From contig CM049306.1 in assembly GCA_026874595.1 (NCBI GenBank), positions 85,772,142 to 85,836,141 of the forward strand: a stretch of DNA of 64,000 nucleotides, given 5' to 3'. Made by a program: the position numbers and the translations under genes. The stretch is from Sipunculus nudus. Lineage: Eukaryota > Annelida > Sipuncula > Golfingiida > Sipunculidae. The first letter of the stretch is position 1, and each line of letters starts with the position of its first letter. Positions 3,146-64,000 of the stretch are shown here, piece by piece. Below the pieces are notes generated by a model. The model was not told the origin of the DNA, did not search any database, and worked only from the letters and a program-made list of their open reading frames with translations.

Positions 3146-3237
3146 AGAGTGAAAAAAGTAATAGGGTCATTTTCAGAAAATCCTAAAAAGGGAGTGATTT
3201 GGCAGGCCTGAGTTCGTTTAGAAATCAACCATTAACA

Positions 3238-22650: not shown

Positions 22651-22954
22651 GTCAATGCAGGTTGTCAGGTCCCCTGATTTTTTGTATTGGTAACCATGCG
22701 ACTACACCAGTCGGTAGGGGGCTCAACTTTAGCTACGCCTCTTTGTTGCTCAAGTTCAAGCAAGTTTGATTTGACAGGCTTTATAGGCTGACGGGGACAC
22801 GACACGGGGATAGAGCTAAAGGTTTGATGGATTTGTCAACTATGAGGCAAACCCCTCGAGGTAGTGTACCCAGCTCATCAGAAAATACATCTGTATAATC
22901 TGTCGTGATGTCAGTCACTGTGCTGATGTTTTAATAGTTTACTGAAATAGTTAG

Positions 22955-24050: not shown

Positions 24051-25330
24051 CTAAGGATTCGTTTGTACAAAGAAGCAGTTCCTGTACAGGTTTGTGCCAG
24101 TAAAATGATTTCTTCGTTTGCGACGGTCAGATTTATTAAAAATGTTTTCGACCAGATTTATCACACTGTTATTTACAATCTTATACATCAAAATTAATCG
24201 AAGTTCACGCCTTCTTGCTGATAGTCGAGCCCATTTTAAATTATTCAATAGAGTAGTAACGCTGCTCCTGGGGTCATAATCCTGTTCAACAAAGTCTCTG
24301 AACCATTTCCAGCATTGATATCCTTAATTATGTGTGGATCCCATGCTGAAGCACTATACTCTAGACGAGACCTACCCGTTGATACAAAAGCCTGCTTCCG
24401 CAGTAGTTCCGGACAATGATGCAAGTTCCTTCGCAAGAGGCCCACGACACTGTTAATTTTAGATGTATTCATCTGTATGTGTTTACTAAACTGAAGGTCA
24501 TTACTAACAATTACACCCAAGTATTTAGCCTCATTGACATAAGATAGTATTGTTCCATCCATGGTATAGAATTTATGTAGTTTATTCTATTCTGATCGAC
24601 AGATAGTAATTATATTGCACTTAGATGCGTTAAAACGCATACCCAAGGTATTAGCCCATTTACAAAGTGGTTTCAGTTCAGTTTGCACTTCTAAATGATT
24701 TACCTGTTTGAGAATTGAGAGATACATCAGACAATCTTCAGTGAAGAGCCGAACTTGTGATGACACATGCTCTGGTAGATTATTAATAAACAGTAAGAAC
24801 AGAAGTGGTCCTAGAACTGTTTTTTGGGGATACTCTACACTACACTGGGGACAGAGATGAATCTTCACCATCAATAACTACTTGTTGGGTACGCCCCTGG
24901 AGGAATGCAGCAATCCAGTTTCTAGAATTGTCATTGATTCCGTAGTGGGTCAGCTTTTTAGAGACTCAGGTGAGAGACATTACCGAAAGCCTTGGAGAAA
25001 TCGAGGCCCGCGATGTCCACTTGTTCCTTGTTGTCATAACGCAACATCAGGTCATGCATCAACTAGGTCTGGCACGAGTATTTTGAACGAAACCCATGCT
25101 GTAGCTGGGTTTGATTCTTGTGGGTCACAATATGAGTAGGTAGATGGTGACGGCTGATATGTTCTAGATATTTGCAACTTACACAGGTAGGTGATATTGA
25201 TCTTTAGTTCTCAGCTTTCCAACTGTTCCCTTTCTTGAAGACAGTGGCAATCTAGGCTTTCTTCCAATCAGACGGTAGGAGATCTGTATATATTAAATGT
25301 TGAAAAATAATCGATAAGTAAGGTGCTGAT
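24051..25330 (-). pseudogene. Non-LTR (LINE, Jockey/CR1-like) reverse transcriptase fragment
   Basis: Minus strand: TVLGPLLFLLFINNLPEHV and VRLFTEDCLMYLS (canonical F-A-D-D; here the first Asp is Glu), then MRFNASKCNIITI and AKYLGVIVSNDLQFSKHI. Next comes the thumb/C-terminal part with LRRNLHHCPELLRKQAF and LEYSASAWDP, and then LKWARLSARRRELRLILMYK. Several frameshifts and stops. The part upstream of 24875 is more decayed. It lies within the Gypsy span and so is probably nested, or it marks a composite. Confidence 0.82.
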
Positions 25331-44100: not shown

Positions 44101-47100
44101 CTAATGTAATTTCTTTATATTTCAGAAATATGTCACAGGAATACATTGTGTATTTTTTCATACATTTCCCTTCAAACATATTTGTTTCAGTATACATTTC
44201 TAGTGCCAGCAGCCATCCTGTTTGCTTGGGGCATTGTAACATTTTTCAGTTTGGTACCAAAACCATCAGAAGTAGGTAAGACAATTGTTATCTTTTAACT
44301 TAAGCCTGCTTGTGTTTAATAGACATGCAGAAGGGAGACTGATATTTAAAAAAAATAGTGCAGATTATCTTTTGTATAGCAAGTTAACTGTGCATTTAAA
44401 ACTGTACACTCTGTCTGCAGAGGTTATACCACTTTAATTTTACCTTAAAATCACTCGTTTTCAAGCGTCATGTTTCCTATACGTGCGTATCTCAAAAAGG
44501 TAACTTCAGTTACTTTGATATTTAGTTAAGTTGACCAGCGATGTTTTCAAACGCACCAGCAAATTGTGACATGGAGCGATGTCAACGTACGATGTGACGA
44601 AGATAATACCGAAGTAACCGGTATGAAAATGATTTGAATCTTCCGAGTAATTCCAGAAAATGGAATTTTTTCAAAAATTAAGAATTCAAAATATTACTTT
44701 TAGAATTAAAATATACAGTGACTTGAAATGGATCAGCAGAATATTTTTTCCAAAATATAATGACAAATCAGTAGCAAACGAGAATACGGCACGGAATATA
44801 AAATCTGTATAAACAGGCAGAGGTTCACCGGCCCTTACGTCTTCCCAAACTTCATGCTTGAGTGACCCTGCAAAAAAGTGTTATGATGTGTTTAAATAAA
44901 ATGCCCAAGGAATTTTTAAAGTGGACAGGAATGGCCGAGTCGCAACCTACGCGTGTTCATTTCTAGATGATTGCTTGATTGTCTTTTGTCAAATCATTCC
45001 ATAGCGAAAGTTGGTGCGGTTTTAAAGGGGGGTTCTTAGTATTTGAGCCCCTCGCGGTGTCTCGCCTGGAATTTCGGCGAAGTCTGGGTGCGGTTTTAAT
45101 CGGAAGTGCGGTTTTAAGTGGAGATTTTACGGTAGTACCAGTTACTTTGTATAACAAGATTCTTTGTTTCACCACCAGGGCTCATACAGGGCAACCAATT
45201 GTAATCAGACCAATTAGAGCGGGGCATTACATTGTGCATCCAACTCCCAAGCTTTAAATCTGATAGCCCAATCCAGTCTGGTTGGTCTGATTCTTGGCCC
45301 TGTGCCAGCCATAGTCTTGAGATCCTTAAATACTCGATACTCGCTAAACAAAGCAGGGGTTAAAAAGAGGGAGATCTGAAACGTCTGCTGTGTTAAACCA
45401 AGTGAAGAGTGTATTAAAACTGCACATTCTCAATTTGTGTAAGATTTGTAAATGTCATGAGGTATCAAAACTATATTAGTGGTAGATGTGTTTTACTCCA
45501 GTTTTACGTAGCTGTTTCTTGTAAAAATATTCTCATAGATTAAATATTTGAATTAATTTTCACCTTCCTGATACTTATAAATTATGAATCTTGGAGGGGG
45601 GGGGGGGGAACTAAAATTAACAAGATGATGAATATGTATTTGAGAATATTCCTTTATAATTTTCAGTGCTCCTGATTTTAAATGTTGAATTTTCTTCTTT
45701 TTTTTGCTGATTCATAGGTTTGCCTTCTCCTGATGAGGATGGTCCAGTTGCTCCATCTGAAACCAAGGTGATAAATGAGGAGGGTGAAGAGGAAAGTGAG
45801 TACACAGGTCATATATCTTTAACTAGTCATCTTTATGTGCAGCCTGATGTTTGTAATTCATCAAGCGGGATGTTAGAGTTCTCATGTTGTCATAAGAGTT
45901 CATAGCAAGTGATATCTCAGCTGAAATCTCCTCCCATTTACAGTGATTTGTAGAAACAACTGTGAAACAGGTAGCTTTTTAAGACCTTTAGAACCCCCCC
46001 TACCAATGGCTTTGAAGTACAACAGAGCTGAGAGCCAGCTGTGATTGTTGTCAGCTCTGTTTGTTGTTCACTCATAGGTGGCTGCTTGTAGTTATCAGTC
46101 ACAGTAGTTGTTGTTAAGCTATTCTCCAACTTACTCAGATGTCAAACAGCATGGGTGGGTGCAGTGCCATTGCATAATCAAATGTGATTAATCCAAGTTA
46201 ATTACATATTGTTTACACCTTGCAGTCACAGTACTTGATCAGTGGCCTGTGGCATGTACGCAGTCACCGGGACGTTGTTAGTTGGGAGGCAGGTTGTGCT
46301 GCAAACCTGTCTTTTATAAATATTTTTATTTGATACAAAATGAATTACATATACATACTGATATGGGAGAAAATTCAAACTGCGCTAATGCTGTAAAATG
46401 AAAAAAACACTAAAATTCAGTTACGTCAAATTAAGCACTTCCATGGTAATACTATATTACACATAAGATGCACAACATCTCCGGTGTACCAGTGGTCTAC
46501 TTCTGATTGTACAGTGGATTTCAGTCACCTAGAAATATAACAATGATGAAATGAAAAATATTACAAGGATAACACTTTTATTTTAATACATTTTTTTCAG
46601 GACCTTTGATACCTTCAGACAATACAGCAAATAATCAAGAAAGGCCTAAGGCTGTTGGATTCATTCAAGCATTTTTACTACCTGGGGTTTTATTGGTGAG
46701 TATAATATAAATATGTACAGCCATGCTGGTTCATCATATATAGAGATGGAACATGACTACTCAGAAAAAGTGGCTCAGTCCAAATGGGAGTTGAACCCAT
46801 GACCTTCCAAGTATAGATTGGCTGCTCTACCAAGGGCTACCGGAGATCCCTGACTCCACTGTGTATTATCACACTTTTATGGGAACCAGCAAAGTGGTGT
46901 CACTACTGTGACATCAGAGTACTAATTATGGGTCATGGGTTAGATTCCTATTTGGAATGAACCAACTTTTCTGTGTGTTCATGGTCCTTCTCTATAATAT
47001 GTTGCTAAGATTGTGAAAATGTTTAACAGTTTGCCGGGTTTGTTATTTTAAGAGCTTGATGAGATATGTAATTTAGAGTTTGAGGTAAACAAGGAAATTG

Positions 47101-50100
47101 AAGGAAGAACAGCAGAATTTCAATAAAATTCTATGATCGCCCAACAGTTAGAGCTACATTGGCAAGTTGCATCAATGTTATAGAATTATTCCCATTGATA
47201 CAATCAAGCACTTCAGATTACTACCCAATGTGTTGTTGTTAATCATAGGTCCACATTTCTTTGGGTAATAAGCTTGGAGATATTGATAACTTGTCCTTTG
47301 AGTTTGCAAGGTAAGAGTTGCTCAGAAAAGTAAACAAAACAAAAGTTTCATTTTATTAACAGTTGTTTATTTGATTTTTATGCAGATTTTCATGTTTGAA
47401 TATAAACTTTTTTCCTTTCAGTATGCACTGTCCTATGCATGCTTGAAGATGGTGAACTATGCATTCTTTTTCTGGTTGCCTTACTATCTGACTAACCGGT
47501 ATGGTTGGGCACAGTCGACAGCAGATGATCTGTCCATTTGGTATGATGTAGGAGGCATTGCTGGTAAGAATTAAAAACATAATATTACATTTTCATGAAA
47601 ATGTACTTCCCCTCTACACTTTCATCTGTTTTCTCTCCTTACAAGTTTACATATTTATTTAAGAGTTAATAAATACCACTTTTTAGCGAACCTGTGAGCT
47701 TATGCGATGGTGTGGAGTTGTCCGTCGTCTGTACATTAACCCATACTATCTTGAAAACGGCACGAATTAGCATCATGAAATTTTATGCATAAAATTAGTC
47801 ATCTAAAAAACTCTATCAGATTTTGCTTATTTTTTTGCTAACTGCATTTTCTTAGACTTTATAAAGAAAAAGCTAAAAAAGCTTAAAAAATCTTCTTCTC
47901 CGAATCTGTTCAGCCAAATTGTCCAATATTTTACAGAAATGATTCCTGGAACAATCTCTCTCAAGTTTGTTCGAATGGTTTAAGTTCGGTGATTTTTGGC
48001 CAAGTTACAGGAAGTTGAACTTAGTCATCTGTCCAAAAAAGCATACTAATTTACAATCTCAGAAATGGCTGGAGCTATCATCACCAAATTTTATGCCAAT
48101 GTTGGTCACATGAGTCATATCTGAAATTGAGGTATTGGTGGCACCACCTGCATTGGCCTTTTTGTATGGGGGTCATCAATGCCCGTATCATACTGACAGC
48201 TACAAATAACTTCTTCTCTGAAACGAAATGGCCAAATTGTTTAATATCGCACAAAAATGATCCTAGGGTAGTGCTTTCTGAAGTTTGTTCAAATGGTCTC
48301 AGTTCAGTGACTTTTGGCTAAGTTATGGGAAGCTGAATTTAGTCATATGCCATAACAGCCCATGTAAGCTAAGTGGCTACAAAAATCTTCTTCTCAAAAA
48401 CCACTGGGCCAAATTCTGAAATCTCACACATAAATTATCCTTAGATATTGATAATTCAAGTTTTTCATATGGTTTTGGTTCGATGATTTTTGGCTGAGTT
48501 ATTGGAAGCTTAATTTAGTCATATGCCATAACAGCCCATGTTAGCTGAGTGGCTACAAAAATCTTCTTCTCAAAAACCACTGGGCCAAATTCTGAAATCT
48601 CGCACAATAATTATCCTTAGAAGTTGATAATTCAAGTTTTTCATATGGTTTTGGTTCGATGATTTTTGGCTGAGTTATGGGAAGCTGAACTTTGCCATTT
48701 TGCTGTATTTTCCCATATGAGTTATAAACCTACAAAATGTTTTTCGACTGATGATACTGAGGCCAGTTTGTTTAATATTTTGCAAGAATAATTCCCTGAA
48801 TCATTCTAATAATAATTGTCTTTTATGGTTCCAAAACATGAATTTTGTCTGAATTATAAAGATTGAATTGAGTCATTTTACCATATATGTTAGCTGTGTG
48901 AAACACATACATCTAGCCTAGCACCAGTTTATCAGCATCCATTACATCATGCCTCTAGACATTTAGATTTCAGAATATCTATGGAAAATATTGACAAGAA
49001 TGTTTTTTAAAAGCTTTTAAAAAATGTAGATTAAATGATATTACATATCATCCGTACACTAACTCATAATTTCTCAGGAATAGCAGGAGCTACCATCCCC
49101 AAATTTTATGCAATTATCAGTCACATATCAAATGTTGATGGATTCAGCTTATTTTTGCCATCTGCATTTACTTAGATTTTACAGGGAAAAAGCTGTAAAA
49201 AACTTTAAAAGTCTTCTTCTTGTAAACAGTCCAGCCAAATTGTTCAGTATTTTACAGAAATGATCCCAGAGGCGAGCCGTCTCAAGTTTGTTCAAATGGT
49301 TTGTGTTGGATAAATTTTAGCAGAGTTACATAACAGGCCAAGATTGTGTATGTTTCTTGAATAGGTTGAGAAACTGCCAACTGTTTCAGATTTGGCAACA
49401 GATCAAGAGTTCATTCAGTGCAGCCAAATATAGGTCAACACTTCAATCAGTGCAGCCAAGCACAAGGCATGTGATCACCTCATGGGCAGCATGTGATCAT
49501 CTCATGGGTAGCATGTGATCACCTCATGAGTATCATGTGATCACCTCATGGGTGTCATGCCCCTCAGGGCTGCATATGGAGCCAATCTGTGAGCTTATGC
49601 AATTGTGTGGCTACTATTTCAGATTTGGCAATAGGCAAAAGGTCAGCCTGGATTTATTCATAGCTTTGGCAGACTGCCAACTGTGTCAGATTATGCAACA
49701 GGTCAAGAGTTCACTCAGTGCAGCCAGGTACAGGTCAAAAGTTCACTCAGTCTAGCCAGTTGCAGGTCAAGAGTTCACTCAGTGCAGTAGCCTGAGCCAG
49801 TAATTTGTCACAAAACACTCGGGGCAACAGCCTTTCTCACCTAAGCCTGGTCAGCCCCATGCAACAGACTCAAGGTAAGTTGGATGTATTGGCCTGATAT
49901 TCTGACTTGTCTATGTGTCTTTAATGGCTTTCTCGGTCACAAGACAGGTGTAGCCATCTACAATGACTTTTGCAAAGTGTATGTGCCTGCTTAACTCTTC
50001 GGAGGAATTTGATATATCAGCCTGAAATTGGGCATATTTATACATGTCAAATAGCTTTGTCGTATACAAGACTGGTGGTGCCACCTACAATAATTTTTGT

Positions 50101-53100
50101 GTTGTGTGCACCCATGCCAGAATTTCAGCAGTGATGTTTGTGTATTGTTTCTTGTTCAAAATGTTTAGTACTTGCATTGTTCATATATATGAAAAGTAGT
50201 GGTTCAGTATTGAAGTGTTATACCTGGTGTATATCCATATGCACAGGTTCGCATTAGGCCTGTAGGCCTTGTTTTACTTTTTTACCAAATTGTATCTGTC
50301 AAGATTTGACTTCAGTTTTCTTTAGTGTCTCTCCACACATATATTTCAGATTCTATTGAGACTACAAGATATTCAAATCAGTGTTTAGGAAAATTTACTT
50401 GAGTGGTGTAATCTTGCTGATAAGTCACCAGATGACTGATATATGCAAAGCAGATGATCCATGAAATACAACCCCTTACATCTCTGCAGGCTATCATAAC
50501 TGAAGCATTTTTGAAAGCATCCGTTGTAGAAACAATTTACAAAATGTTCTGCATTTGGCATTGACTGGGCATTTACCCTTTTAAGAGTCTTTATATTTCT
50601 AAAACAAATGATTTCACTTACAAGCATATTTGAAACTTATGTATAATCAAACTTTTACAGGTTAATGTTACTCTTTAGAAATATTGAATATTTAGATTTA
50701 ATACCCCTTTTTTCCTCTTCAGGGGGTATAGCTGGTGGCTTATTATCAGTGAGTATAATAGTTTCCTTTAAATCTGTCAGATTTTCTGTTTACAATTAAT
50801 TCTCATTATCCATTAAGATGGAATTTTGCCAAATAAATATCTCATAAAATAAACAGGCCACTCAGTATAATACCTATAAATAACTGATTAGTTTATATAT
50901 TTATAACTCCATAATCATTTAACTTGCCAGGTATTACTTGAATGTCATGTAAATTCACACAGTGGCCATTCAATTTGATACACAGTATATCACAAAAGGA
51001 AATGAAGTATAAATTAATGTATACTGTCAGCCTAAAGGTGAAGTTATTGAGATGAGCCATTTTGTTTATCCTTTCCAACCCAGTGTCCCTAGACACTACA
51101 AGGCTCTCTTTATTATATGTAAAGCTAAAACTGGTCTCACGGACACATTCCTTAGGCGGACAAGTGGCTATAACGGACAAGATAGTTAAGTCCCTTCAAA
51201 AATACCTTATATGTTATGTATAAGCAGAACCTCTATAAGGTGGACACCTCACTTCTGTGGACAAAGGACAGCACAATTCAACTCAAACCTACTTTCTTAG
51301 AGTAAATAAACCTGACAAATACGGACACGATACCCCATCTCGGCTGACCCTGATCACTAGCCCCGTGCAATATCAAAGGCCCCGCGTACTATTGTTGTTC
51401 CTTGGACAGGAACACAAAGAATTATGCAATCCCCAGTTGTTACCTTAATGTGTGTATGTGCTCATGTCACGGTGTGATGTGCTCATAAAATAAAAACAGC
51501 AAGGCTGAAGTGGTAAACATCGGGTCACTTTATTTCATGGGTGATCATTCATATGTTGAGAAGCTGCATATTATTCGCTCGACCGCAAGGTCAATAAACT
51601 GATTAAACGGCTGCGGATTACCAATGCGTACCTGGTCTCACCACGCAATTTTGAACTGTAAACTTAGCCACTTTGTTGTAGCAGGCTGTTTGATATTAAG
51701 TAATTAGTTTTGTTCAGTATATCTTAAACTTATCTGCTCAGTGTCAAACATGTGCTTGCTCTATATTTGTGTTCTGTGCTGCAGTGCACAAGCTCCTCGG
51801 GGGATTGTTTCATCTTGTGTGCCTTCAACGTCAAAGCAAATCAAACCAAACAACCATCATCAAAGAAAGTTTATTTAAGGCTAAAGCTACATTCACTTAT
51901 AAAAACGAATGGTCCCAGATTTGTAGCCATTATTTTCGCATTATCAAGTCGTCATTATCATTGAGATTTTCGCATTGGGATAGATGAACCAGGATAGTTT
52001 TAGACAATGCCGCCAGGTGGCACCACGCATACACCTAGGCGGGAGCTTACGCTTTTTGAGAAAGTCAAGCTTATTCGACTGAGTCAATCAGCAAAAAAGA
52101 ACATACACACACTATATGAACATTGTTTTACAGATGTCTTCATAGACTTTACTTTTTATATTGTTCACAACTTGAGATAAGTAAAAATAATCACAGTTTG
52201 TATATGACTATTGAATGCATGATGTGTGCATGAATATGTTGTACATGTACATGAAATCTGATATAATACAATAAACACATTCTTGCAGCTGTTCCTTGTC
52301 TTTATTTATAATCCCTCAGTTTTCAACCAAGGTCAACCTGCCTAATAAGAACACCTTACTATTAAGGACAAAATGATTGAGTCCCTTAATTGTCAGCTTT
52401 AGACAGGTTTCACTGTATATATATTACATTCATTTGTTTTGTTGACAGGATTTTCTGAGGAGGGCACCTGTTGTAGAAGGGATGTTGGTTTTGGCTTTAC
52501 CCTCCCTCTGGATGTATAACTATGGTAAGTTAAAGATACTTTTTGAAACAATGAAGACATTTTCCCTTTTTTATGAGAGGTTCAGTCATTCATGGTGACT
52601 TACCATTAACAGACAATAAAGTGATGTTAAATATGGTTACATGATTTTTTATTCAACAAATTTCAACATACCTATCTTCATGTAAAAACTTTCATACTAA
52701 AATAAAAGAGACAGTCTATGTTCTGTTGTAATACATATATATTTGAGGAATTTCAGTCAATTGATAATTTAAAGTTGGTCATTTGTTATATTTTCTGCAG
52801 TTAATCAATATCTTATATTTGTATTATGTTACTTTGATAATAATAAACCTTACACAATACAAGGTTCCATAATTTTTTGCCTAATGGAACTTGCACACAG
52901 CTAATTTGTTTCAAATGGCAATTCAAGCATGTGTTAGTTTCTGACTCAATAGATCATTATACCAATATTATTTAATAACACAACTCTGTATATTTAAAAC
53001 AAAAACACTGTTTTCTTTCTCTTACAGTATCAGCCACAAATATGTCACTGAACGGCTTCCTTTTGTCTGTGGTTGGGTTCTTCATTGGTGGACCAGCGAC

Positions 53101-53132
53101 GCTCATCAGCTCAGCAATAGCAGCTGACTTAG
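28906..53132 (+). CDS. SLC37A3: SLC37A3-like sugar-phosphate exchanger family protein, 14 exons, 3' end beyond the window
   Basis: Joined exons: 28906-28982, 35569-35683, 38712-38804, 38943-38974, 40214-40265, 42144-42289, 43624-43720, 44191-44275, 45718-45795, 46601-46695, 47422-47563, 50723-50748, 52449-52524, 53028-53132. They read through without a stop for 406 codons plus one base, and every intron is GT-AG. The product is a multi-pass MFS protein. RKTFSNVK (about residues 34-41) follows the first membrane helix. An N-E-S glycosylation sequon (N54) sits where human SLC37A3 also has one. GALGDRFNIR (about 101-110) is an MFS motif A. NGLLQSLGWP, GNWFG and ASVGNIIGS are OPA/SLC37 signatures. 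An acidic loop (about 230-265) separates the two six-helix halves. LSYACLKMVNYAFFFWLP matches SLC37A3 better than SLC37A1, A2 or A4. Human SLC37A3 works with ATRAID in lysosomes; its natural substrate is not settled. The ATG at 28906 is the first in-frame one after a TGA at 28822-28824. The C-terminal 85-90 residues are not in the window. Confidence 0.93.
29041..29060. repeat. Poly-C tract in intron 1
   Basis: About 20 consecutive C shortly after the exon 1 donor. On the transcript this is a C-rich run 58 nt into intron 1. Confidence 0.9.
31850..32215 (+). repeat. Diverged tandem duplication, unit about 180 bp (intron 1)
   Basis: Two units start gactgactg (31848-31856 and 32034-32042) and share tacgtatgtggatgtatcat / tatgtatgtaggtgtatcat, tatgttctctttgaaataat and a(c)taatgaaggtg-like ends. 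The first also has a small palindrome ccaccctgcaggtgg. Confidence 0.6.
33025..34361. mobile_element. hAT-like transposon with perfect 8-bp target duplication (intron 1)
   Basis: Left end CAGGGTTGGGTTTCTACC and right end ...CCTGCCAACCCTG form hAT-type inverted termini. It is flanked by tgctggag on both sides (33017-33024 and 34362-34369), a perfect 8-bp TSD. Subterminal regions hold TCTACC/GGTAGA repeats (33033-33145 and 34250-34285). On the minus strand, WEHF (33684-33695) and, after a frameshift, CKLCGN (33629-33645) are the remains of a BED zinc finger, typical of the N-terminus of hAT transposases. The rest of the transposase is gone. Confidence 0.88.
33600..33735 (-). pseudogene. BED zinc-finger remnant of an hAT transposase
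   Basis: One frame reads GGSPKDQIWEHFMSV; the adjacent frame reads GGKEYGKCKLCGNQQLAKAD. Together they give the aromatic (W/F) and Cys-x2-Cys parts of a BED finger. A frameshift separates them, and a stop follows ADK. Confidence 0.65.
35569..35683 (+). CDS. SLC37A3: SLC37A3-like exon 2
   Basis: Completes codon 26 (GG|A) and encodes residues 27-64. It covers the end of helix 1, the RKTFSNVK motif, EEWTPSP and the NES sequon in the first luminal loop. Acceptor ttcttacag, donor gtaagt, ending in phase 0. It is separated from exon 1 by the 6.6-kb intron that holds the hAT element. Confidence 0.93.
35908..35966. repeat. (TA)n microsatellite (intron 2)
   Basis: Pure TA/AT alternation of about 58 bp. 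Confidence 0.95.
36696..38070 (-). mobile_element. Family A element, copy 3, minus orientation (intron 2)
   Basis: Its 3' hairpin is at 36696-36725 (gtatccgccaaaac aaa gttttgtggatac). Its 5' hairpin tagtcgcttgtcgacta is at 38042-38058, ending ctag at 38070. The interior carries reverse-complement 278-bp units (37380-37980). About 470 bp (36830-37300) do not align with the other copies and may be an insertion or a diverged segment. Confidence 0.75.
38108..38148. repeat. (AT)n microsatellite (intron 2)
   Basis: Pure AT repeat beside the end of the family A element, within a longer Tyr/Ile-coding artefact frame. Confidence 0.95.
38293..38370 (+). repeat. 78-bp segment duplicated exactly at 39652-39729
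   Basis: Begins gattgctttaagtgtatcac and ends ccttatgtatatggtaatg. By eye all 78 bases are identical to the copy 1.36 kb downstream. See the intron 4 minisatellite. Confidence 0.9.
38371..38690. mobile_element. Possible small MITE with CTAGGT / ACCTAG ends (intron 2)
   Basis: Left side aactaggtacttaccggtac and right side caagtactcaggtactcc ttt caaacctag are loosely inverted GTACTT-rich termini reminiscent of the 4790 element. No clear target duplication, so this is tentative. Confidence 0.3.
38712..38804 (+). CDS. SLC37A3: SLC37A3-like exon 3
   Basis: 31 whole codons (residues 65-95): VWNSEHMFS, then FLSILDMGFLIAYAV, the second membrane helix. Human SLC37A3 has a matching VEIWSSNHLFPS and LDTIFLFSYAV. 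Donor gtaagt, phase 0 at both ends. Confidence 0.93.
38943..38974 (+). CDS. SLC37A3: SLC37A3-like exon 4 (32 nt)
   Basis: Encodes GLYISGALGD plus two bases of an Arg codon, the first half of MFS motif A. Acceptor ctttgcag, donor gtatgt. The intron before it is only 138 bp, the shortest in the gene. Confidence 0.9.
39048..40018 (+). repeat. 31-bp minisatellite, intron 4
   Basis: About 30 imperfect units of roughly 31 bp, each with ataggaactaggaagtaatg followed by tcttttccttg. It is interrupted once, at 39652-39729, by the exact 78-bp copy of 38293-38370. It fills most of the 1.24-kb intron 4. Confidence 0.92.
40214..40265 (+). CDS. SLC37A3: SLC37A3-like exon 5
   Basis: Completes the Arg codon (AG|A) and encodes FNIRYVLAIGMTSSAVM. 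It finishes motif A and forms helix 3. Acceptor ttttcag, donor gtcagt, ending in phase 0. Confidence 0.9.
41035..42098. mobile_element. Element with ATGCCCCCGCC inverted ends and 179-bp internal repeats (intron 5)
   Basis: Ends atgcccccgcc (41035-41045) and ggcgggggcat (42088-42098) are a perfect 11-bp inverted pair. Inside, six units spaced 168-179 bp start gc(t/c)tgcagatattggcct (41048, 41227, 41395, 41574, 41751 and 41930). Alternate units are more alike, suggesting an about 355-bp dimer. No ORF and no clear target duplication. The right end is 45 bp from the exon 6 acceptor. Confidence 0.75.
42144..42289 (+). CDS. SLC37A3: SLC37A3-like exon 6
   Basis: Encodes residues 124-171 plus two bases. 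Contains GCLSGWLHIYS, NGLLQSLGWPS and AVMGNWFGRS. The W-P-S/C and GNWFG motifs are the most diagnostic OPA/SLC37 segment. Acceptor tttttacag, donor gtagct. Confidence 0.95.
43624..43720 (+). CDS. SLC37A3: SLC37A3-like exon 7
   Basis: Completes Ser172 (AG|T) and encodes RGLVLGIWSSCASVGNIIGS and on through LHAGYE. Human SLC37A3 has GIWSACAS-like residues and ASVGNILG here. Acceptor tttctgacag, donor gtgagc, phase 0 end. Confidence 0.95.
44191..44275 (+). CDS. SLC37A3: SLC37A3-like exon 8
   Basis: Encodes YTFLVPAAILFAWGIVTFFS followed by LVPKPSEV (helix 6 and the start of the central cytoplasmic loop). Acceptor tttgtttcag, donor gtaaga. One base of a Gly codon carries over. Confidence 0.93.
44430..45260. 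repeat. Possible interspersed element in intron 8
   Basis: A block of distinct composition with gtgcggttttaa(a/t) repeated three times (45013, 45089 and 45107) and several CpGs. Boundaries and family unknown. Confidence 0.3.
45718..45795 (+). CDS. SLC37A3: SLC37A3-like exon 9 (acidic central loop)
   Basis: Encodes GLPSPDEDGPVAPSE and NEEGEEE, a poorly conserved acidic linker between the N- and C-terminal six-helix bundles. Both phases fit the neighbours: it enters with G|GT and leaves with A|GA. Acceptor ttcatag, donor gtgagt. Confidence 0.88.
46601..46695 (+). CDS. SLC37A3: SLC37A3-like exon 10
   Basis: Begins with an Arg codon completed across the splice (A|GA), then PLIPSDN (human SLC37A3 has RPLINGG) and KAVGFIQAFLLPGVLL, leading into helix 7. 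Acceptor tttttttcag, donor gtgagt, phase 0 end. Confidence 0.92.
46770..46852 (-). mobile_element. tRNA-like SINE head (intron 10)
   Basis: Minus strand: ccttggtagagcagcc (A-box-like, 46821-46836), then ggtcatgggttcaactccc (B-box, 46786-46804). Spacing and sequence suggest a tRNA-derived SINE or a tRNA pseudogene. An anticodon stem cannot be built cleanly, so it is not called as a tRNA. Confidence 0.5.
47422..47563 (+). CDS. SLC37A3: SLC37A3-like exon 11
   Basis: Encodes YALSYACLKMVNYAFFFWLP, then YYLTNRYGW and DDLSIWYDVGGIA. Nearly residue for residue like vertebrate SLC37A3 across helix 7 and the following loop. Acceptor cctttcag, donor gtaaga. One G carries into the microexon. Confidence 0.96.
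47688..49330 (+). mobile_element. Family C element (intron 11)
   Basis: Starts gcgaacctgtgagcttatgc and gatggtg, the inverse of the 15391 end of the 14870-15391 copy. Contains agtcatctgtccaaaaaagc, ggtattggtggcaccacct and, at 48320-48710, two units of a 176-bp tandem repeat (gtggctacaaaaatcttctt at 48373 and 48549). No protein-coding capacity seen. Confidence 0.65.
49380..49800 (+). repeat. Short tandem repeats in intron 11
   Basis: Four 22-23 bp units of gcatgtgatcacctcatggg type (49468-49558), each with a TGATCA palindrome. Around them are dispersed caagagttcactcagtgcag units (49404, 49688, 49737 and 49768). Confidence 0.7.
50723..50748 (+). CDS. SLC37A3: SLC37A3-like exon 12 (26-nt microexon)
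   Basis: Only 26 nt: with the carried-over G it encodes GGIAGGLLS, giving VGGIAGGIAGGLLSDF across the splices. This has the same length as the human segment in helix 8. Acceptor cctcttcag, donor gtgagt. Flanking introns are 3.2 and 1.7 kb. Omitting it would shift the frame, because 26 is not a multiple of three. Confidence 0.88.
51115..52425. mobile_element. Possible degenerate DNA transposon (intron 12)
   Basis: The left part contains cggacacattccttaggcgg, ggacaag and aacctctataaggtggacac. The right part contains aacaccttactattaaggac and ttagacaggtttcactgtat. Paired motifs of this kind at two ends suggest an element of about 1.3 kb. No transposase frame recognised, and ends are not defined. 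Confidence 0.35.
52449..52524 (+). CDS. SLC37A3: SLC37A3-like exon 13
   Basis: Encodes DFLRRAPVVEGMLVLALPSL then WMYNY. The D-x-x-x-x-R-A-P-V pattern corresponds to SDVLQKRAPVL in human SLC37A3. Acceptor gttgacag, donor gtaagt. Confidence 0.94.
53028..53132 (+). CDS. SLC37A3: SLC37A3-like exon 14 (last exon in window)
   Basis: Encodes VSATNMSLNGFLLSVVGFFI then GGPATLISSAIAADL plus the first base of a Gly codon. Matches the FFIGGPSNMISSAISADLG segment of vertebrate SLC37A3. Acceptor cttacag, donor gtttgt. No exon for the conserved TVTGIVDGSGSIGAA segment was found to the right, so intron 14 is longer than 10.8 kb. Confidence 0.94.
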
Positions 53133-53610
53133 GTTTGTTAAGTGATAGGATATTTGAAAGCTTAATCACACCCATATTCATTAATATTCATAGGACCTGT
53201 TTATGACCTTTATGTAATACATGTAAATCTGAGGGAGGAATTATCATGTCCCAAATGCCACAATAATAAATGATCATGCATTGAGCTTTTATTGTCTGAT
53301 TCAGGATTTACACACTTTTCCTCATGTGCCCCTTGGTTTTTCTGTGAGGTTATATCTGTGATATGATACATGTATCCAGACCAACTAACACATTGGTTGT
53401 AAATATCCTTTTAATTCCACTTTAGAGACCACAGAAAATTAATAACCTGTAATATGTAAAAGGTTAAAGGAAGGACTAATGCACTGGGAAAAATTGTGTT
53501 GATTTAGTAATTTGAGAGAAAACCAAATGTCAATAAAGAGATAAGACACAAATAGAACTGTAAGGTAAGACTGAATGAAAATGAAGAATAATAATTGGAA
53601 ATAGGGCTGT

Positions 53611-56600
53611 AACAATACAATATCTCATGATACAATACATATCTTTAAGCTTCACTCATGATATGATACATATCTCTAAGCTTCACTCATGATACGATAC
53701 ATATCACTAATCTTCACTCATGATATGATACATATCTCTAAGCTTCACTCATGATACGATACATATCACTAATCTTCACTCATGATATGATACATATCAC
53801 TAATCTTCACTCATGATACGATACATATCTCTAAGCTTCACTCATGATACAATACATATCACTAAGCTTCCCTCATGATACGATGCAAATCACTAAGCTT
53901 CATTCGTGATATGATACGTATCTCTAAGCGTAACTCATGATATGATACATATATCTACGTTTCACTCGTGATACAATTCATAAGCTTCCCTAATGATATG
54001 AAACATATCTCTAAGCTTCACTCATGATACGATACATATCTCTAAGCTTCACTCATGATACAATGCAAATCGCTAAGCTTCACTCATGAAACAATTCATA
54101 AGCTTCACTCATGATACAATACATATCTCTAAGCTTCACTCATGATACAATAAATATCACTAAGCTTCCCTTATGATACGATACATATCTCTAAGCTTCA
54201 CTCATGATACAATACATATCACTAAGCTTCCCTCATGATACGTTGCATATCATTAAGCTTCACTCATGATATGATACATATCTCCAAGCGTAACTCATGA
54301 TATGATACATATATCTACGTTTCACTCATGATACTGTTCATATCTCAAAGCTTCAATCATGATACAATTCATAAGCTTTACTCATACGATTCATATCTCT
54401 AAGCTTCACTCATGATAAGATACATATCTCTAAGCTTCACTTATAAAATGATACATATCTCTAAGCTTAACACATGATATGATACATTTCTCTAAGCTTC
54501 ATTCATGAATCATATGTCTAAGCTTCACTTATGATACAATTCATAAGCTTCACTCATGATTAGATACATATATCTAAGCTTCACTCATGATACTATACAT
54601 ATCACTAAGCTTCAGTCATGATATGATTCAGATTTCAAAGCTTCACTCTTGATATGATACATATCTCTAAGCTTCTCTCATGATATAATTAAGATCTCTA
54701 AGCTTCACTCATGATACTATATATATCTCAAGGCTTCACTCATGATACGATTCATATCTCTAAGCTTTACTCATTTTAAAATTCCTTTCTCTGAGATTCA
54801 CTCATGATACAATACATATTACTAAGCTTCACTCATGATATGATTCAGATTTCAAAGCTTAACTCTTGATATGAAACATATCTCTAAGCTTCACTCATGA
54901 TACAATTTATAAGCTTCACTCATGTATGATTAATATATCTAAGCTTCACTCATGATAAGATACATATATCTAAGCTTCACTCATGAAATCATACATATCT
55001 CTAAGCTTCACTCATTATAAAATTCATATCTCTAAGCTTCACTCATGATATGGTTTATACCTCTAAGATTCACTATTGAAACAATACATATCTTATGCTT
55101 CACTCATGATACAATTCATATCTCTAAGCTTCACTCATGATATGATTCATATCTCTAAGCTTCACTCATGATACTGTACATTTGTCTAAGCTTCACTCAT
55201 GAAACGATTCATATCTCTAAGCTTCACTCATTTTAAAATTCATATCTCTGAGATTCACTCATGATACGATACATATCACTAAGCTTCACTCATGATTCAA
55301 TTCATCAGCTTCACTCATGTATGATTCATATATCTAAGCTTCACTCATGATAAGATACATATATCTAAGCTTCACTCATGAAACGATACATATCTCTAAG
55401 CTTCACTCATGATAGATATATATCTCTAAACTTCACTCATGATTTGATACATATCTCTAAGCTTCACTCTTGATATGATACATATCTCTAAGCTTCACTC
55501 ATGATATGGTTCATACCTCTAAGATTCACTAATGAAACAATACATATCTTATGCTTCACTCATGACACAACTCATATCTCTAAGCTTCATTCTGGTTAAA
55601 ATTCATATCTCTAAGCTTCACTCATGATATGATATGTATCTCTAAGCTTAACACATGATATGATACATTTCTCTAAGCTTCATTCATGAATCATATGTCT
55701 AAGCTTCACACATGATACCATTCATAAGCTTCACTCATGATAAGATACATATATCTAAGCTTCACTCATGATACTATACATATCAATAAGCTTCACTCAT
55801 GATATGATTCAGATTTCAAAGCTTCACTCTTGATATGATACATATCTCTAAGCTTCTCTCATAATATAATTCAGATCTCTAAGTTTCACTCATGATACTA
55901 TATATATCTCAAAGGTTCACTCATGATATGATTCATGTCTCTAAGCTTCACTCATGAAACGATTCATATCTCTAAGCTTCACTCATTTTAAAATCTATAT
56001 CTCTGAGATTCACTCATGATACGATACATATCACTAAGCTTCACTCATGATACAATTCATCAGCTTCACTCATGTATGATTCATATATCTAAGCTTCACT
56101 CATGATAAGATACATATATCTTAGCTTCACTCATGAAATGATACATATCTCTAAGCTTCACTCATGATAGATATATCTCTAAACTTCACTCATGATTTGA
56201 TACATATCTCTAAGCTTCACTCACGATATGGTTCATACCTCTAAGATTCACTATTGAAACAATATATATCTTATGCTTCACTCATGATACAATTCATATC
56301 TCTAAGCTTCACTCATGATACTGTACATTTGTCTGAGCTTCGCTCATGAAACGATTCATATCTCTAAGCTTCACTCATGATATGGTTTATACCTCTAAGA
56401 TTCACTATTGAAACAATACATATCTTATGCTTCACTCATGATACAATTCATATCTCTAAGCTTCACTCATGATATGATTCATATCTCTAAGCTTCACTCA
56501 TGATACTGTACATGTGTCTAAGCTTCACTCATGAAACGATTCATATCTCTAAGCTTCACTCATTTTAAAATTCATATCTCTGAAATTCACTCATGATACG

Positions 56601-59600
56601 ATACATATCACTAAGCTTCACTCATGATTCAATTCATCAGCTTCACTCATGTATGATTCATATATCTAAGCTTCACTCATGATAAGATACATATATCTAA
56701 GCTTCACTCATGAAATGATACATATCTCTAAGCTTCACTCATGATAGATATATATCTCTAAACTTCACTCATGATTTGATACATATCTCTAAGCTTCACT
56801 CTTGATATGATACATATCTCTGAGCTTCACTCATGATATGGTTCATACCTCTAAGATTCACTAATGAAACAATACATATCTTATGCTTCACTCATGACAC
56901 AACTCATATCTCTAAGCTTCATTCTGGTTAAAATTCATATCTCTAAGCTTCACTCATGATATGATATGTATCTCTAAGCTTAACACATGATATGATACAT
57001 TTCTCTAAGCTTCATTCATGAATCATATGTCTAAGCTTCACACATGATACCATTCATAAGCTTCACTCATGATAAGATACATATATCTAAGCTTCACTCA
57101 TGATACTATACATATCAATAAGCTTCACTCATGATATGATTCAGATTTCAAAGCTTCACTCTTGATATGATACATATCTCTAAGCTTCTCTCATAATATA
57201 ATTCAGATCTCTAAGTTTCACTCATGATACTATATATATCTCAAAGGTTCACTCATGATATGATTCATGTCTCTAAGCTTCACTCATGAAACGATTCATA
57301 TCTCTAAGCTTCACTCATTTTAAAATCTATATCTCTGAGATTCACTCATGATACGATACATATCACTAAGCTTCACTCATGATACAATTCATCAGCTTCA
57401 CTCATGTATGATTCATATATCTAAGCTTCACTCATGATAAGATACATATATCTAAGCTTCACTCATGAAATGATACATATCTCTAAGCTTCACTCATGGT
57501 AGATATATGTCTAAACTTCACTCATGATTTGATACATATCTCTAAGCTTCACTCACGATATGGTTCATACCTCTAAGATTCACTATTGAAACAATATATA
57601 TCTTATGCTTCACTCATGATACAATTCATATCTCTAAGCTTCACTCATGATACTGTACATTTGTCTGAGCTTCGCTCATGAAACGATTCATATCTCTAAG
57701 CTTCACTCATGATATGGTTTATACCTCTAAGATTCACTATTGAAACAATACATATCTTATGCTTCACTCATGATACAATTCATATCTCTAAGCTTCACTC
57801 ATGATATGATTCATATCTCTAAGCTTCACTCATGATACTGTACATGTGTCTAAGCTTCACTCATGAAACGATTCATATCTCTAAGCTTCACTCATTTTAA
57901 AATTCATATCTCTGAGTTTCACTCATGATACGATACATATTGCTAAGCTTCACTCATGATACAATTCATAAGCTTCACTCATGTATGATTCATATATCTA
58001 AGCTTCACTCATGATAAGATACATATATCTAAGCTTCACTCATGAAATGATACATATCTCCAAGCTTCACTCATGATAGATATATATCTCTAAACTTCAC
58101 TCATGATTTGATACATATCTCTAAGCTTCACTCTTGATATGATACATATCTCTAAGCTTCACTCATGATATGGTTCATACCTCTAAGATTCACTAATGAA
58201 ACAATACATATCTTATGCTTCACTCATGACACAATTCATATCTCTAAGCTTCATTCTGGTTAAAATTCATATCTCTAAGCTTCACTCATGATATGATATG
58301 TATCTCTAAGCTTAACACATGATATGATACATTTCTCTAAGCTTCATTCATGAATCATATGTCTAAGCTTCACACATGATACCATTCATAAGCTTCACTC
58401 ATGATAAGATACATATATCTAAGCTTCACTCATGATACTATACATATCACTAAGCTTCACTCATGATATGATTCAGATTTCGAAGCTTCACTCTTGATAT
58501 GATACATATCTCTAAGCTTCTCTCATGATATAATTCAGATCTCTAAGTTTCACTCATGATACTATATATATCTCAAAGGTTCACTCATGATACGATTCAT
58601 GTCTCTAAGCTTTACTCATTTTTTAAATTCATTTCTCTGAGATTCACTCATGATACGATACATATTACTAAGCTTCACTCATGATCTGATTCAGATTTCA
58701 AAGCTTAACTCTTGATATGATACATATCTCTTAGCTTCACTCATGATACAATTTATAAGCTTCACTCATGTATGATTAATATATCTAAGCTTCACTCATG
58801 ATAAGATACATATATCTAAGCTTCACTCATGATGTCATACATATCTCTAAGCTTCACTCATGATACAATTCATATCTCTAAGCTTCACTCACGATATGGT
58901 TCATACCTCTAAGATTCACTATTGAAACAATACATATCTTATGCTTCACTCATGATACAATTCATATCTTTAAGCTTCACTCATGATATGATTCATATCT
59001 CTAAGCTTCACTCATGATACTGTACATTTGTCTGAGCTTCGTCATGAAACGATTCATATCTCTAAGCTTCACTCATTTCTAAAATTCATATCTCTGAGAT
59101 TCACTCATGATACAATACATATAGCTAAGCTTTACTCATGATACAAATTATAAGCTTCACTCATATATGATTCATATATCTAAGCTTCACTCATGATAAG
59201 ATACATATATCTAAGCTTCACTCATGAAATGATACATAACTCTAAGCTTCACTCTTGATATGATACATATCTCTAAGCTTCACTCATGATATGGTTCATA
59301 CCTCTAAGATTCACTAATGAAACAATACATATCTTATGCTTCACTTATGACACAATTCATATCTCTAAGCTTCATTCTTGTTAAAATTCATATCTCTAAG
59401 CTTCACTCATGATATGATATGTATCTCTAAGCTTAACACATGATATTATACATTTCTCTAAGCTTCATTCATGATTCATATGTCTAAGCTTCACTTATGA
59501 TACAATTCATAAGCTTCACTCATGATAAGATACATATATCTAAGCTTCACTCATGATACTATACATATCACTAAGCTTCACTCATGATATGATTCAGATT

Positions 59601-62600
59601 TCGAAGCTTCACTCTTGATATGATACATATCTCTAAGCTTCTCTCATGAAATAATTCAGATCTCTAAGTTTCACTCATGATACTATATATATCTCAAAGG
59701 TTCACTCATGATACGATTCATGTCTCTAAGCTTTACTCATGATACTATACATATCTCGAAGCTTCACTCATGAAACAATTCATATCTCAAAGCTTCACTC
59801 ATGATATGATTCAGACCTCTAAGCTTCACTCTTGATATGATACATATCTCTAAGTTTCACTCATGTATCATTTCTCATCTCTATGCTTCACTCATGATAT
59901 GATTCAGATCTCTAAGCTTCACTCATGGTATGATTCAAATCTCTAAGGTTCACTCATGATACTGTACATTTGTCTAAGCTTCACTCATGAAACGATTCAT
60001 ATCTCTAAGCTTCACTCATTTTAAAATTCATATCTCTGAGATTCACTCATGATACGATACATATCACTAAGCTTCACTCATGATAAGATACATATATCTA
60101 AGCTTCACTCATGAAATGATACATATCTCTTAGCTTCACTCATGATAGATATATCTCTAAACTTCATTCATGATTTGATACATATCTTTAAGCTTCACTC
60201 ATGATACAATTCATATCTCTAAGCTTCACTCATGATATGGTTCATATCTCTAAGATTCACTAATGATCCATTACATATCTTATGCTTCACTCATGATACA
60301 ATTCATATCTCTAAGCTTCATTCTTGAAAAAAATCATATCTCTAAGCTTCACTTATGATACAATTCAGAAGCTTCACCCATGATACAATTTTATATCTCT
60401 TAGCTTCACTCATGTTAAAATTCATATCTCTAAGCTTCACTCATGATAAGATACATATCTCTTAGCTTCACTCATGATAGATACATATCTCTTAACTTCA
60501 CTCATGTTTCAGTACATATCTCCAAGCTTCACTCATGATACAATTCATATCCCTAGGTATATAATGATACAATTTTATATCTCTTAGCTTCACTCATGTT
60601 AAAATTCATATCTCTAAGCTTCACTCATGATAAGATACATATCTCTTAGCTTCACTCATGATAGATACATATCTCTAAACTTCACTCATGTTTCAGTACA
60701 TATCTCCAAGCTTCACTCATGATACAATTCATATCCCTAAGCTTCACTTATGATATGATTCATATCTCTAAGATTCACTAATGATACAATACATATCTTA
60801 TGCTTAACTCATGATACGATGCATATCTCTGAGCTTCATTTATGATGAGTTACATATCTCTAAGCTTCACTCATGATACGATTCATATCACAAAGTTTCA
60901 CTCATGATATGATTCATATCTTCAAGCTTCACTCATGATATGATACACATCTACAAGCTTCACTCATGATACGATTCATATCTCTGAACTTCACTCATGA
61001 TATGATATGTATCTCTAAGCTTAACACATGATATGATACATTTCTCTAAGCTTCATTCATGAATCATATGTCTAAGCTTCACACATGATACCATTCATAA
61101 GCTTCACTCTTGATAAGATACATATATCTAAGCTTCACTCATGATACTATACAGATCAATAAGCTTCACTCATGATATGATTCAGATTTCAAAGCTTCAC
61201 TCTTGATATGATACATATCTCTAAGCTTCTCTCATGATATAATTCAGATCTCTAAGTTTCACTCATGATACTATATATATCTCAAATGTTCACTCATGAT
61301 ACGATTCATGTCTCTAAGCTTTACTCAATTTAAAATTCATTTCTCTGAGATTCACTCATGATACGATACATATTACTAAGCTTCACTCATGATACAATTT
61401 ATAAGCTTCACTCATGTATGATTAATATATCTAAGCTTCACTCATGATAAGATACATATATCTAAGCTTCACTCATGACTTCATACATATCTCTAAGCTT
61501 CACTCATGATACAATTCATATCTTTAAGCTTCACTCACGATATGGTTCATACCTCTAAGATTCACTATTGAAACAATACATATCTTATGCTTCACTCATG
61601 ATACAATTCATATCTCTAAGCTTCACTCATGATATGATTCATATCTCTAAGCTTCACTCATGATACTGTACATTTGTCTGAGCTTCACTCATGAAACGAT
61701 TCATATCTCTAAGCTTCACTCATTTTAAAATTCATATCTCTGAGATTCACTCATGATACAATACATATCGCTAAGCTTTACTCATGATACAAATTATAAG
61801 CTTCACTCATATATGATTCATATATCTAAGCTTCACTCATGATAAGATACATATATCTAAGCTTCACTCATGAAATGATACATAACTCTAAGCTTCACTC
61901 TTGATATGATACATATCTCTAAGCTTCACTCATGATATGGTTCATACCTCTAAGATTCACTAATGAAACAATACATATCTTATGCTTCACTTATGACACA
62001 ATTCATATCTCTAAGCTTCATTCTTGTTAAAATTCATATCTCTAAGCTTCACTCATGATATGATATGTATCTCTAAGCTTAACACATGATATTATACATT
62101 TCTCTAAGCTTCATTCATGATTCATATGTCTAAGCTTCACTTATGATACAATTCATAAGCTTCACTCATGATAAGATACATATATCTAAGCTTCACTCAT
62201 GATACTATACATATCACTAAGCTTCACTCATGATATGATTCAGATTTCGAAGCTTCACTCTTAATATGATACATATCTCTAAGTTTCACTCATGATATAA
62301 TTCAGATCTCTAAGCTTTACTCATGATACTATACATATCTCAAAGCTTCACTCATGATACAATTCATATCTCAAAGCTTCACTCATGATATGATTCAGAC
62401 CTCTAAGCTTCACTCTTGATATGATACATATCTCTAAGTTTCACTCATGTATCATTTCTCATCTCTATGCTTCACTCATGATATGATTCAGATCTCTAAG
62501 CTTCACTCATGTTATGATTCAAATCTCTAAGGTTCACTCATGATACTGTACATTTGTCTAAGCTTCACTCATGAAATGATTCATATCTCTAAGCTTCACT

Positions 62601-63572
62601 AATTTTAAAATTCTATCTCTGAGATTCACTCATGATATGATACATATCACTAAGCTTCACTCATGATACAATTCATCAGCTTCACTCATGTATGATTCAT
62701 ATATCTAAGCTTCACTCATGATTAGATACATATATCTAAGCTTCACTCATGAAATGATACATATCTCTAAGCTTCACTCATGATAGATATATCTCTAAAC
62801 TTCACTCATGATTTGATACATATCTCTAAGCTTCACTCATGATACAATTCATATCTCTAAGCTTCACTCATGATATGGTTCATATCTCTAAGATTCACTA
62901 ATGATCCAATACATATCTTATGCTTCACTCATGATACAATTCATATCTCTAAGCTTCATTCATGAAAAAAAATCATATCTCTAAGCTTCACTTATGATAC
63001 AATTCAGAAGCTTCACCCATGATACAATTTTATATCTCTTAGCTTCACTCATGTTAAAATTCATATCTCTAAGCTTCACTCATGATAAGATACATATCTC
63101 TAAGCTTCACTCATGATAGATACATATCTCTAAACTTCACTCATGTTTCAGTACATATCTCCAAGCTTCACTCATGATACAATTCATATCCCTAAGCTTC
63201 ACTTATGATATGATTCATATCTCTAAGATTCACTAATGATACAATACATATCTTATGCTTAACTCATGATACGATGCATATCTCTGAGCTTCATTTATGA
63301 TGAGTTACATATCTCTAAGCGTCACTCATGATACGATTCATATCACAAAGTTTCACTCATGATATGATTCATATCTTCAAGCTTCACTCATGATATGATA
63401 CACATCTACAAACTTCACTCATGATACGATTCATATCTCTGAACTTCACTCATGATAAGATATCCCCAAGCTTCACTAATGATGAGTTACATATCTCTAA
63501 GCTTCACTCATGATATGATTCATATCACAAAGCTTCACTCATGATATGGTGCTTTGCATATCTCTTAGGGTG
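53611..63572. repeat. About 10-kb minisatellite of roughly 31-bp units with higher-order organisation (intron 14)
   Basis: Several hundred imperfect units of aagcttcactcatgatacga followed by tacatatctct (31 bp), with shorter 24-25 bp and variant units mixed in. Each typical unit carries AAGCTT and TCATGA. Left end: aacaatacaatatctcatga (53611). Right end: catatctcttagg (63572). Unit variants recur in fixed order, giving higher-order repeats of 1,332 bp (55051, 56383 and 57715) and about 2.5-2.6 kb (58.6-61 kb and 61.3-63.5 kb). No ORF above 60 codons occurs within it. Confidence 0.96.
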
Positions 63573-64000
63573 TGTTTTTGTGCTCTGACCAAAGTTTCAT
63601 TGTGCAATTGTTACGACCAAATGCGTTATGGGGCTCTGGTTTGTTGAATCAGGGCTTTGTTGAACAAGTGGTCGGACCAGACTGAACAGGGAACAGTTGT
63701 TGGTTCTGCACAGACGATTAATATTGAAACAGGTTTGACAATCTAGCCAATCAGATTGCTTATTATTTGATTTCTTGATTGATGTTTCACAGTATACATG
63801 TACAATGGGCAGGTGACTATTATTAATTTGTAGAAGACTCTAGTTAAATGTTTGACTTTCTGTTGGATGGTCATATATGTATGCAACATATGGATAAAGA
63901 ACATAGAATGCTCAAAATATATTTCCTTTTTTAATGGCAGTGTATTGGTGCACTTGTGAATTGTTGAGGTCAAAATTGATTGACAAATCTGACTGGCTGA
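63573..64000. other. Unique-looking intronic sequence
   Basis: Right flank of the minisatellite. No SLC37A3 exon and no other gene seen. The open frame on the minus strand (63743-63973) lacks protein-like features. Confidence 0.4.

Follow-up and report, generated by a model that had tools for sequence, protein, structure and literature searches.

How does a 10-kb tandem array, with variant units that recur in a fixed order, come to occupy an intron of a conserved gene? The question is raised by a 64,000-bp stretch of the Sipunculus nudus genome (assembly GCA_026874595.1, contig CM049306.1, forward-strand positions 85,772,142 to 85,836,141; hereafter the window), in which Tandem Repeats Finder (TRF) calls a single 31-bp array of ~10 kb at 53624-63546, with 327.3 copies. 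With a tandem unit of tens of bases the array is a minisatellite, and it lies in an intron of an SLC37-like gene. A previous sequence-only reading had described it as an intronic minisatellite with higher-order periods. The intronic location and the higher-order organization both stand, but the array belongs to a dispersed transposon with fixed ends. As far as the sequence can tell, it forms the tandem part inside a single copy of a short, dispersed DNA transposon that resembles a miniature inverted-repeat transposable element (MITE).

The window copy extends from 53602 to about 63974 and comprises, in order, a 5' terminal inverted repeat (TIR), the array, 72 unmatched bases, a non-tandem tail and a 3' terminus (Table 1). 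This frame was observed directly by comparison with other loci, numbered L0xx, which are stretches taken from the same assembly (1.43 Gb, 153 contigs). Many left flanks share a head that consists of TAGGGCTGTAACRATAC followed approximately by ATTATCTCACGATAC, and a tail of ~350 bp is common to many right flanks. A head profile built from eight other loci, without the window, matches 53602-53643 with an expectation value (E) of 6e-10. The tail of a single locus, L019, used as a seed, matches the right flank of the window with E 1.3e-7. A tail profile without the window row matches 63743-63961 at E 9.1e-19, with no match in any of 50 shuffles or 17 left flanks; in an 83.9-kb extended window it finds one other place only, 68131-68346, in two pieces. 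Other copies have a clear 3' TIR, for instance ATTATTACAGCCCTA in L019 and GTTACAGCCCTA in L050. The family has terminal inverted repeats, with GTTACAGCCCTA or a close version at the 3' end of L019, L050 and L067 among others. GATAC/GTATC was also considered as a 3' subterminal marker; checked in five tails, it held in two and was dropped.

Table 1. Coordinates of the window's transposon copy, its repeat blocks and the host intron.
Feature	Position in window	Strand	Basis and remarks
Upstream coding exon, SLC37-like, ending ...GFFIGGPATLISSAIAADL/G	53028..53132	+	Start set by eye (TTACAG/TATCAG)
Host intron, splice donor at 53133	53133..64000, on to 64048 past the window	+	Exon reading
5' TIR TAGGGCTGTAACAATAC	53602..53618	+	Head profile; head to ~53643
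31-bp tandem array	53624..63546	+	TRF and wrap-around decomposition; ~328 units, 164 distinct
1,332-bp (44-unit) block, 2.70 copies	55022-56353, 56354-57685, 57686-58619 (partial)	+	Self-comparison
Longer block, two copies	58733-61378, 61379-63463	+	Self-comparison and gapped alignment
184-bp (~6-unit) tandem duplication, first long block only	60381..60748	+	Alignment
3' non-tandem tail	63619..63964, best-supported core 63743-63961	+	Tail models; full extent from a model with the window among its rows
Degenerate 3' inverted terminus GAATTGTTGAGGTCAAA (clear copies: GTTACAGCCCTA)	63958..63974	+	Alignment and eye; weak alone

Queried with the first 277 bp of the array, the genome returned at least 140 matches on at least 13 numbered contigs; these related arrays had escaped the sequence-only reading, as had the longer periods that several of them possess. 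We took 27 unit-matching loci, 17 from L011-L028 (with L023 and L024 merged into a single locus) and 10 from L029-L038, a set in which some loci hold only 2-3 units; matches at C4:52.59 Mb, C2:62.53 Mb and C8:69.19 Mb were left out of this sample. The head was detected at E<0.01 in 17 of the 27 loci, including 9 of the 19 outside the head model, which was built from the remaining 8. The tail was likewise detected at E<0.01 in 17 of 27 and in 9 of the 19 outside the tail model, 8 being in the model. Both parts are present at 12 of the 27 loci, and the window, left out of both models, shows both. At L026 the repeated unit contains the head, which is hence recurrent.

The family was also approached from its other end. 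A genome search with the L022 tail found 20 places including L022 itself, giving 19 new loci, all of which match the longer tail model. At 10 of these 19 loci a head (E<0.05) precedes the tail in the same orientation, and none of the 19 has a 31-bp-unit array among TRF rows containing GATAC, GTATC or ATATC. The head pattern TAGGGCTGTAACRATAC, with at most one mismatch, has 515 matches in the genome compared with 9 for a reversed control. Short copies measure 312 bp (L009), 393 bp (L034) and 457 bp (L033); the one in L009, at 4048-4359, is an unexpanded copy ~4 kb downstream of the window and probably sits in the same gene as the array. The family thus consists of dispersed copies that share their two ends, as MITE-like transposons do. 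Because the tail-found loci have no arrays of the unit and head matches are so many, the ordinary state of the family seems to be an element of ~0.3-0.5 kb that holds a single unit or a few; long arrays seem exceptional. Alternatively, the array could be a stand-alone minisatellite, formed by slippage out of the local intron sequence, that acquired its higher-order structure later. The array and its pattern are real, and 4 of the 27 related loci show neither element end, as such an origin would allow. We nonetheless reject it as very improbable because of the shared flanks: the unit occurs at many loci, most of them with one or both flanking parts, and these parts were met whether the search began with the array or with the tail.

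The superfamily to which these elements belong was approached through their target sites. TIRs beginning with YAGGG together with an 8-bp target-site duplication would mean hAT. For eight copies with hand-chosen boundaries, the summed target-site match is 39, compared with a null mean of 32.2, and a fraction of 0.0021 of 1,884 derangements does as well. The sum is driven by L031 (7/8), L033 (7/8) and L022 (6/8), the only three copies to reach at least 6/8. Four further copies (L060, L062, L063 and L067), examined by eye, match at ~3-5 of 8 positions, near chance. The first eight copies favored a duplication of 8 bp but the four added ones did not, and we therefore claim no superfamily; the family may be hAT-like.

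The element accounts for 10,373 of the 10,916 bp (95%) of its host intron. The sequence-only reading had placed the array inside an intron of a conserved gene, and the exons bear this out: the next exon starts at 64049, in locus L009, and the two flanking exons join in frame, ...GFLLSVVGFFIGGPATLISSAIAADLG continuing into RQEPIRGNKEALATVTGIIDGTGSVGAAIGQ. The product is presumably an SLC37-like sugar-phosphate exchanger; the gene name is based on the exon reading, on SLC37 motifs and on a weak PDB match (23ic_A, E 0.0053). The three forward frames of 44000-53200 gave no Pfam domain at E<=0.01. The intron minus the element is 543 bp, so that the expansion has made an intron of ~0.54 kb 20 times longer. 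Since the element makes up nearly all of the intron and ends 74 bp from the splice acceptor, with both splice sites present by eye, one might suppose that the array is kept for a function in the host gene, in regulation, splicing or chromatin. Unit sequence and period vary between sibling loci, where TRF gives periods of 31, 32, 37, 40, 44 and 62 bp, and we regard such a function as highly unlikely. An origin by expansion of a transposon copy would neither require nor demonstrate a function of the array.

Within the array, two levels of divergence were observed. By wrap-around decomposition, the 328 units lie on average 13.5% from their consensus, and adjacent units are on average 6.65 edits apart across the whole array (~21% divergence). 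Of 75 units compared over a lag of 44, 57 have an identical partner and the mean edit distance is 0.39, compared with 6.70 for adjacent units of the same stretch. Ungapped self-comparison aligns 55022-57287 with 56354-58619 at a lag of 1,332 bp and 99.07% identity over 2,266 bp. Copies 1 and 2 of this block differ at 7 of 1,332 sites (0.5%), and copy 3 differs from either at 14 of 934 (1.5%), giving identities of 98.5-99.5%. Copy 3 is the odd one out at 12 of the 16 sites where a single copy deviates, and the split between copies 1 and 2 looks younger than their split from copy 3. The longer block, whose copies range from 2.1 to 2.6 kb, aligns with gaps between 58733-61008 and 61379-63463 at 98.77% (2,003 matches, 25 mismatches); the gaps are of 62, 55 and 184 bp (~2, 2 and 6 units), plus four of 1 bp. 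Its copies are related by lags of 2646, 2639 and 2455, among them the ungapped pairs 59080-59744 and 61726-62390 (98.0%, lag 2,646) and 60564-61008 and 63019-63463 (99.1%, lag 2,455). The 184-bp duplication aligns 60381-60564 with 60565-60748 at 176 matches and 2 mismatches, with 6 unaligned end bases per copy. The block duplications are in phase with the unit.

The sequence-only reading had anticipated most of this pattern. Self-comparison and unit decomposition, which it had proposed, recovered both the 1,332-bp and the longer block. Its view that variant units recur in fixed order, rather than in a simple tandem run, holds, for shuffled unit orders lose the pattern: shared 60-mers cover 5,387 of 9,864 positions in the real order, whereas 100 unit-order permutations average 69 and never exceed 234. 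Its marker tggtttatac does occur at 55051, 56383 and 57715, 1,332 bp apart. The marker cttaacacatg keeps the same spacing but lies two bases to the left of where it was reported, at 55647, 56979 and 58311, and occurs 7 times rather than 3. The pairs 58891/61537 and 58751/61397 are identical 25-mers at lag 2,646, and the 25-mers at 60847/63302, lag 2,455, differ by one base. An extra 184-bp copy had been offered for most of the 191-bp difference between these lags; tgatacaattttat is indeed found at 60381, 60565 and 63020, and 191 is 184 + 7. Recent kilobase-scale duplication had also been proposed, and the blocks are far less diverged than the units. Blocks far closer to each other than adjacent units are, in a pattern above chance for the unit set, mark a higher-order repeat array. 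Because adjacent units are ~21% apart but units at the block lag are nearly identical, the units would have diverged before the blocks were duplicated. If divergence is read as age, the units would be old and the blocks young.

Other arrays of the family differ widely in size and order. Among loci with an element part, the directly observed number of units is ~1-3 at L009, L033 and L034, 7 at L038, 10 at L030, 17 at L019, 45 at L017, 99 at L025, ~210 of 44 bp at L023 and L024, and 328 in the window; L028 has 229 units of 40 bp, with no head or tail found and a right flank that is almost not covered. The best lags lie far above the unit in 5 of 12 sibling arrays, in a comparison made without a permutation control: 275 in L014, 467/249 in L026, 1,944/430 in L023 and L024, 1,278/770 in L025 and 320/3,397 in L028. 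The arrays of L012, L016 and L022 (493-706 bp) show no long lag at the 95% level, those of L015 and L027 are nearly homogeneous, and those of L017 and L019 favor small multiples of the unit. Since five sibling arrays have long lags of their own, higher-order structure is recurrent in this transposon family. These lags also bear on the idea that part of the pattern in the window is an assembly artefact, produced by false expansion or by haplotypes joined in tandem. Arrays this long are hard to assemble, and the near identity of block copies 1 and 2 would fit such an error. It is nevertheless improbable in our judgment, as the copies bear distinct differences, namely the deviating sites of copy 3 and the three multi-unit gaps of the longer block, and the sibling arrays have their own longer lags.

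Some copies of the family show further features. In L019 (~1742-2223) the 3' terminal region of the element, including the TIR, forms a tandem array of its own (3.8 copies of 127 bp). The 5' terminus occurs in nine perfect copies within 1.9 kb at G000:C1:102527320-102529156, a local amplification of the element end. In L012 (~2300-2311) the head starts right after GGTAAG, which is donor-like by eye, and this copy may open an intron. A 48-bp stretch flanks the array of L011 on both sides (~2796-2843 and 3174-3221, 87.5% identity), and the left one closes with a sequence that resembles, by eye, the end of an exon with a splice donor (GACAAGGTAAGA).

We consider it highly probable that a 31-bp unit carried by the element expanded within the intron and diverged, and that blocks of units were then duplicated in register. 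At the start, a MITE-like element of ~0.3-0.5 kb, made up of a 5' and a 3' TIR around a single 31-bp unit or a few and a ~350-bp 3' part, would have inserted into the ~0.54-kb intron of the SLC37-like gene. Slippage or unequal exchange would then have raised the number of internal units, as it did elsewhere in the family. The 21% divergence of adjacent units suggests that the units next diverged, which would have given each region a locally recognizable order of variants. Finally, in-phase misaligned exchange or template switching may have copied runs of tens of units, yielding the pattern observed: the 1,332-bp block (2.7 copies), the block of 2.1-2.6 kb (2 copies) and the 184-bp duplication. 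The blocks may instead have arisen by re-insertion of extrachromosomal circles or by template switching during replication, without unequal crossing-over. Arrays can grow by unequal crossing-over or by rolling-circle reintegration, both of which are named in passages of PMC4079207. The duplications hold the phase of the unit and can exceed 2 kb, and a static sequence fits either route, but gaps of ~2, 2 and 6 units suit unequal exchange well, and we see the circle or template-switch route as possible though doubtful.

Several points weigh against the origin of the array from an expanded transposon unit. The head is absent at E<0.01 from 10 of the 27 unit-matching loci (weak in L016, at 0.025, and L015, at 0.12; none in the other 8), there is no tail at E<0.01 in 10 of the 27, and L013, L018, L028 (with its poorly covered right flank) and L029 have neither. 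The tail lies within 601 bases, at E<0.01, in just 4 of 10 loci with a perfect head; because only 4 of these 10 carry the tail, the TIR is probably common to more than one sub-family. Two of the 19 tail-found loci have other tandem repeats in their tail regions, L043 with 15.7 copies of 24 bp and L046 with 5.0 copies of 35 bp. In the window itself, the 3' terminus is degenerate, the target-site match is 5/8 (with other copies mixed), and the 72-bp stretch at 63547-63618, which separates the array from the tail, has no match. The tail alignment was first made with the window row, which was taken out afterwards, and the L019 seed result is therefore the cleaner test. Lastly, reading divergence as age presumes that the blocks have not homogenized each other.

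Diverged units that recur in fixed order as younger multi-unit blocks are known from alpha satellite and hornerin. Alpha satellite is centromeric and hornerin is protein-coding, whereas the array described here is a transposon copy in an intron. The likeness to centromeric satellites drawn by the sequence-only reading is apt for the pattern and is an analogy only; a centromere-like satellite was rejected, as the 10-kb array lies in an intron and does not fit the definition of a centromeric satellite. Hikosaka and Kawahara (2004), to go by their title, reportedly described Xstir tandem repeats 'riding on' a Xenopus MITE. MITE-associated tandem arrays, including Xstir, are tabulated in part of PMC6947457; by title and table row Xstir is similar in being a MITE that carries tandem repeats, and differs in organism and sequence. 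In Drosophila virilis, according to passages of PMC4079207, Tetris TIR-220 is a non-autonomous DNA transposon whose internal tandem repeats grow to kilobase arrays. The variable number of internal repeats is shared with the present family, and unequal crossing-over has been proposed for Tetris. Its 220-bp units lie inside foldback-type TIRs in beta-heterochromatin, whereas here a 31-bp unit in a short element has grown within an intron and formed a 44-unit block. The nearest intronic case of ~30 bp is TRACT in human CACNA1C, a 30-bp variable number tandem repeat of 3-30+ kb with unit variants, in which long stretches of units were duplicated by recombination, as cited in PMC13131567. Human population data exist for TRACT; the passages of PMC13131567 at hand mention no transposon frame for it, whereas the window array has one. 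No paper in the searched literature uses the terms higher-order repeat, MITE, tandem repeat, transposable element and hAT together, though the family may still have been described; the string GGGCTGTAACGAT led, by the listings, to LAMP (loop-mediated isothermal amplification) fish assays only. The window array joins a known kind, that of repeats in non-autonomous transposons, and its 44-unit block is unusually clear.

The window contains other repeats. The 12-bp palindrome GGTGGCGCCACC occurs at 12572, 13535, 13964, 15973, 16104, 16253, 16916, 17261, 17605 and 17943, within tandem arrays of ~280 bp and ~340 bp, and also at L010:253, L013:90, L020:903, L023:42 and 190, and L027:250. Several of its contexts are unrelated by eye, and it may be a binding site or part of a mobile element. 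At 41044-42054 TRF calls a tandem array of ~178 bp whose double period is 356 bp; its kin in L019 (1-586) and L038 (2126-2891), ~75-78% identical, make it a second dispersed tandem family. A separate, diverged 31-bp array at 39046-40011 has the unit TAGGAAGTAATGTCTTTTCCTTGATAAGAAC, by eye unlike the main unit. On the reverse strand, 46776-46846 gives a borderline Rfam tRNA match (29.7 bits, cut-off 29), no tRNA is found there by ARAGORN with the bacterial code, and the stretch is possibly a short interspersed element (SINE). Open frames on the same strand at 22231-22701 and 24245-24586 resemble, by eye, pieces of a retrotransposon reverse transcriptase.

The 31-bp unit might also be a subterminal transposase-binding site, so that array growth would be driven by, or rewarded in, transposition; we hold this to be unlikely. 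If it were true, the genome would contain many independent runs from one seed unit, with 1 to more than 300 units, and the onset of higher-order structure could be related to array length and age. The origin proposed here, a short mobile element with an expanded internal repeat, would explain how a large intronic minisatellite with higher-order structure arose. With its seed unit at many loci, the family would offer natural replicates for how array length and unit divergence yield higher-order repeats.

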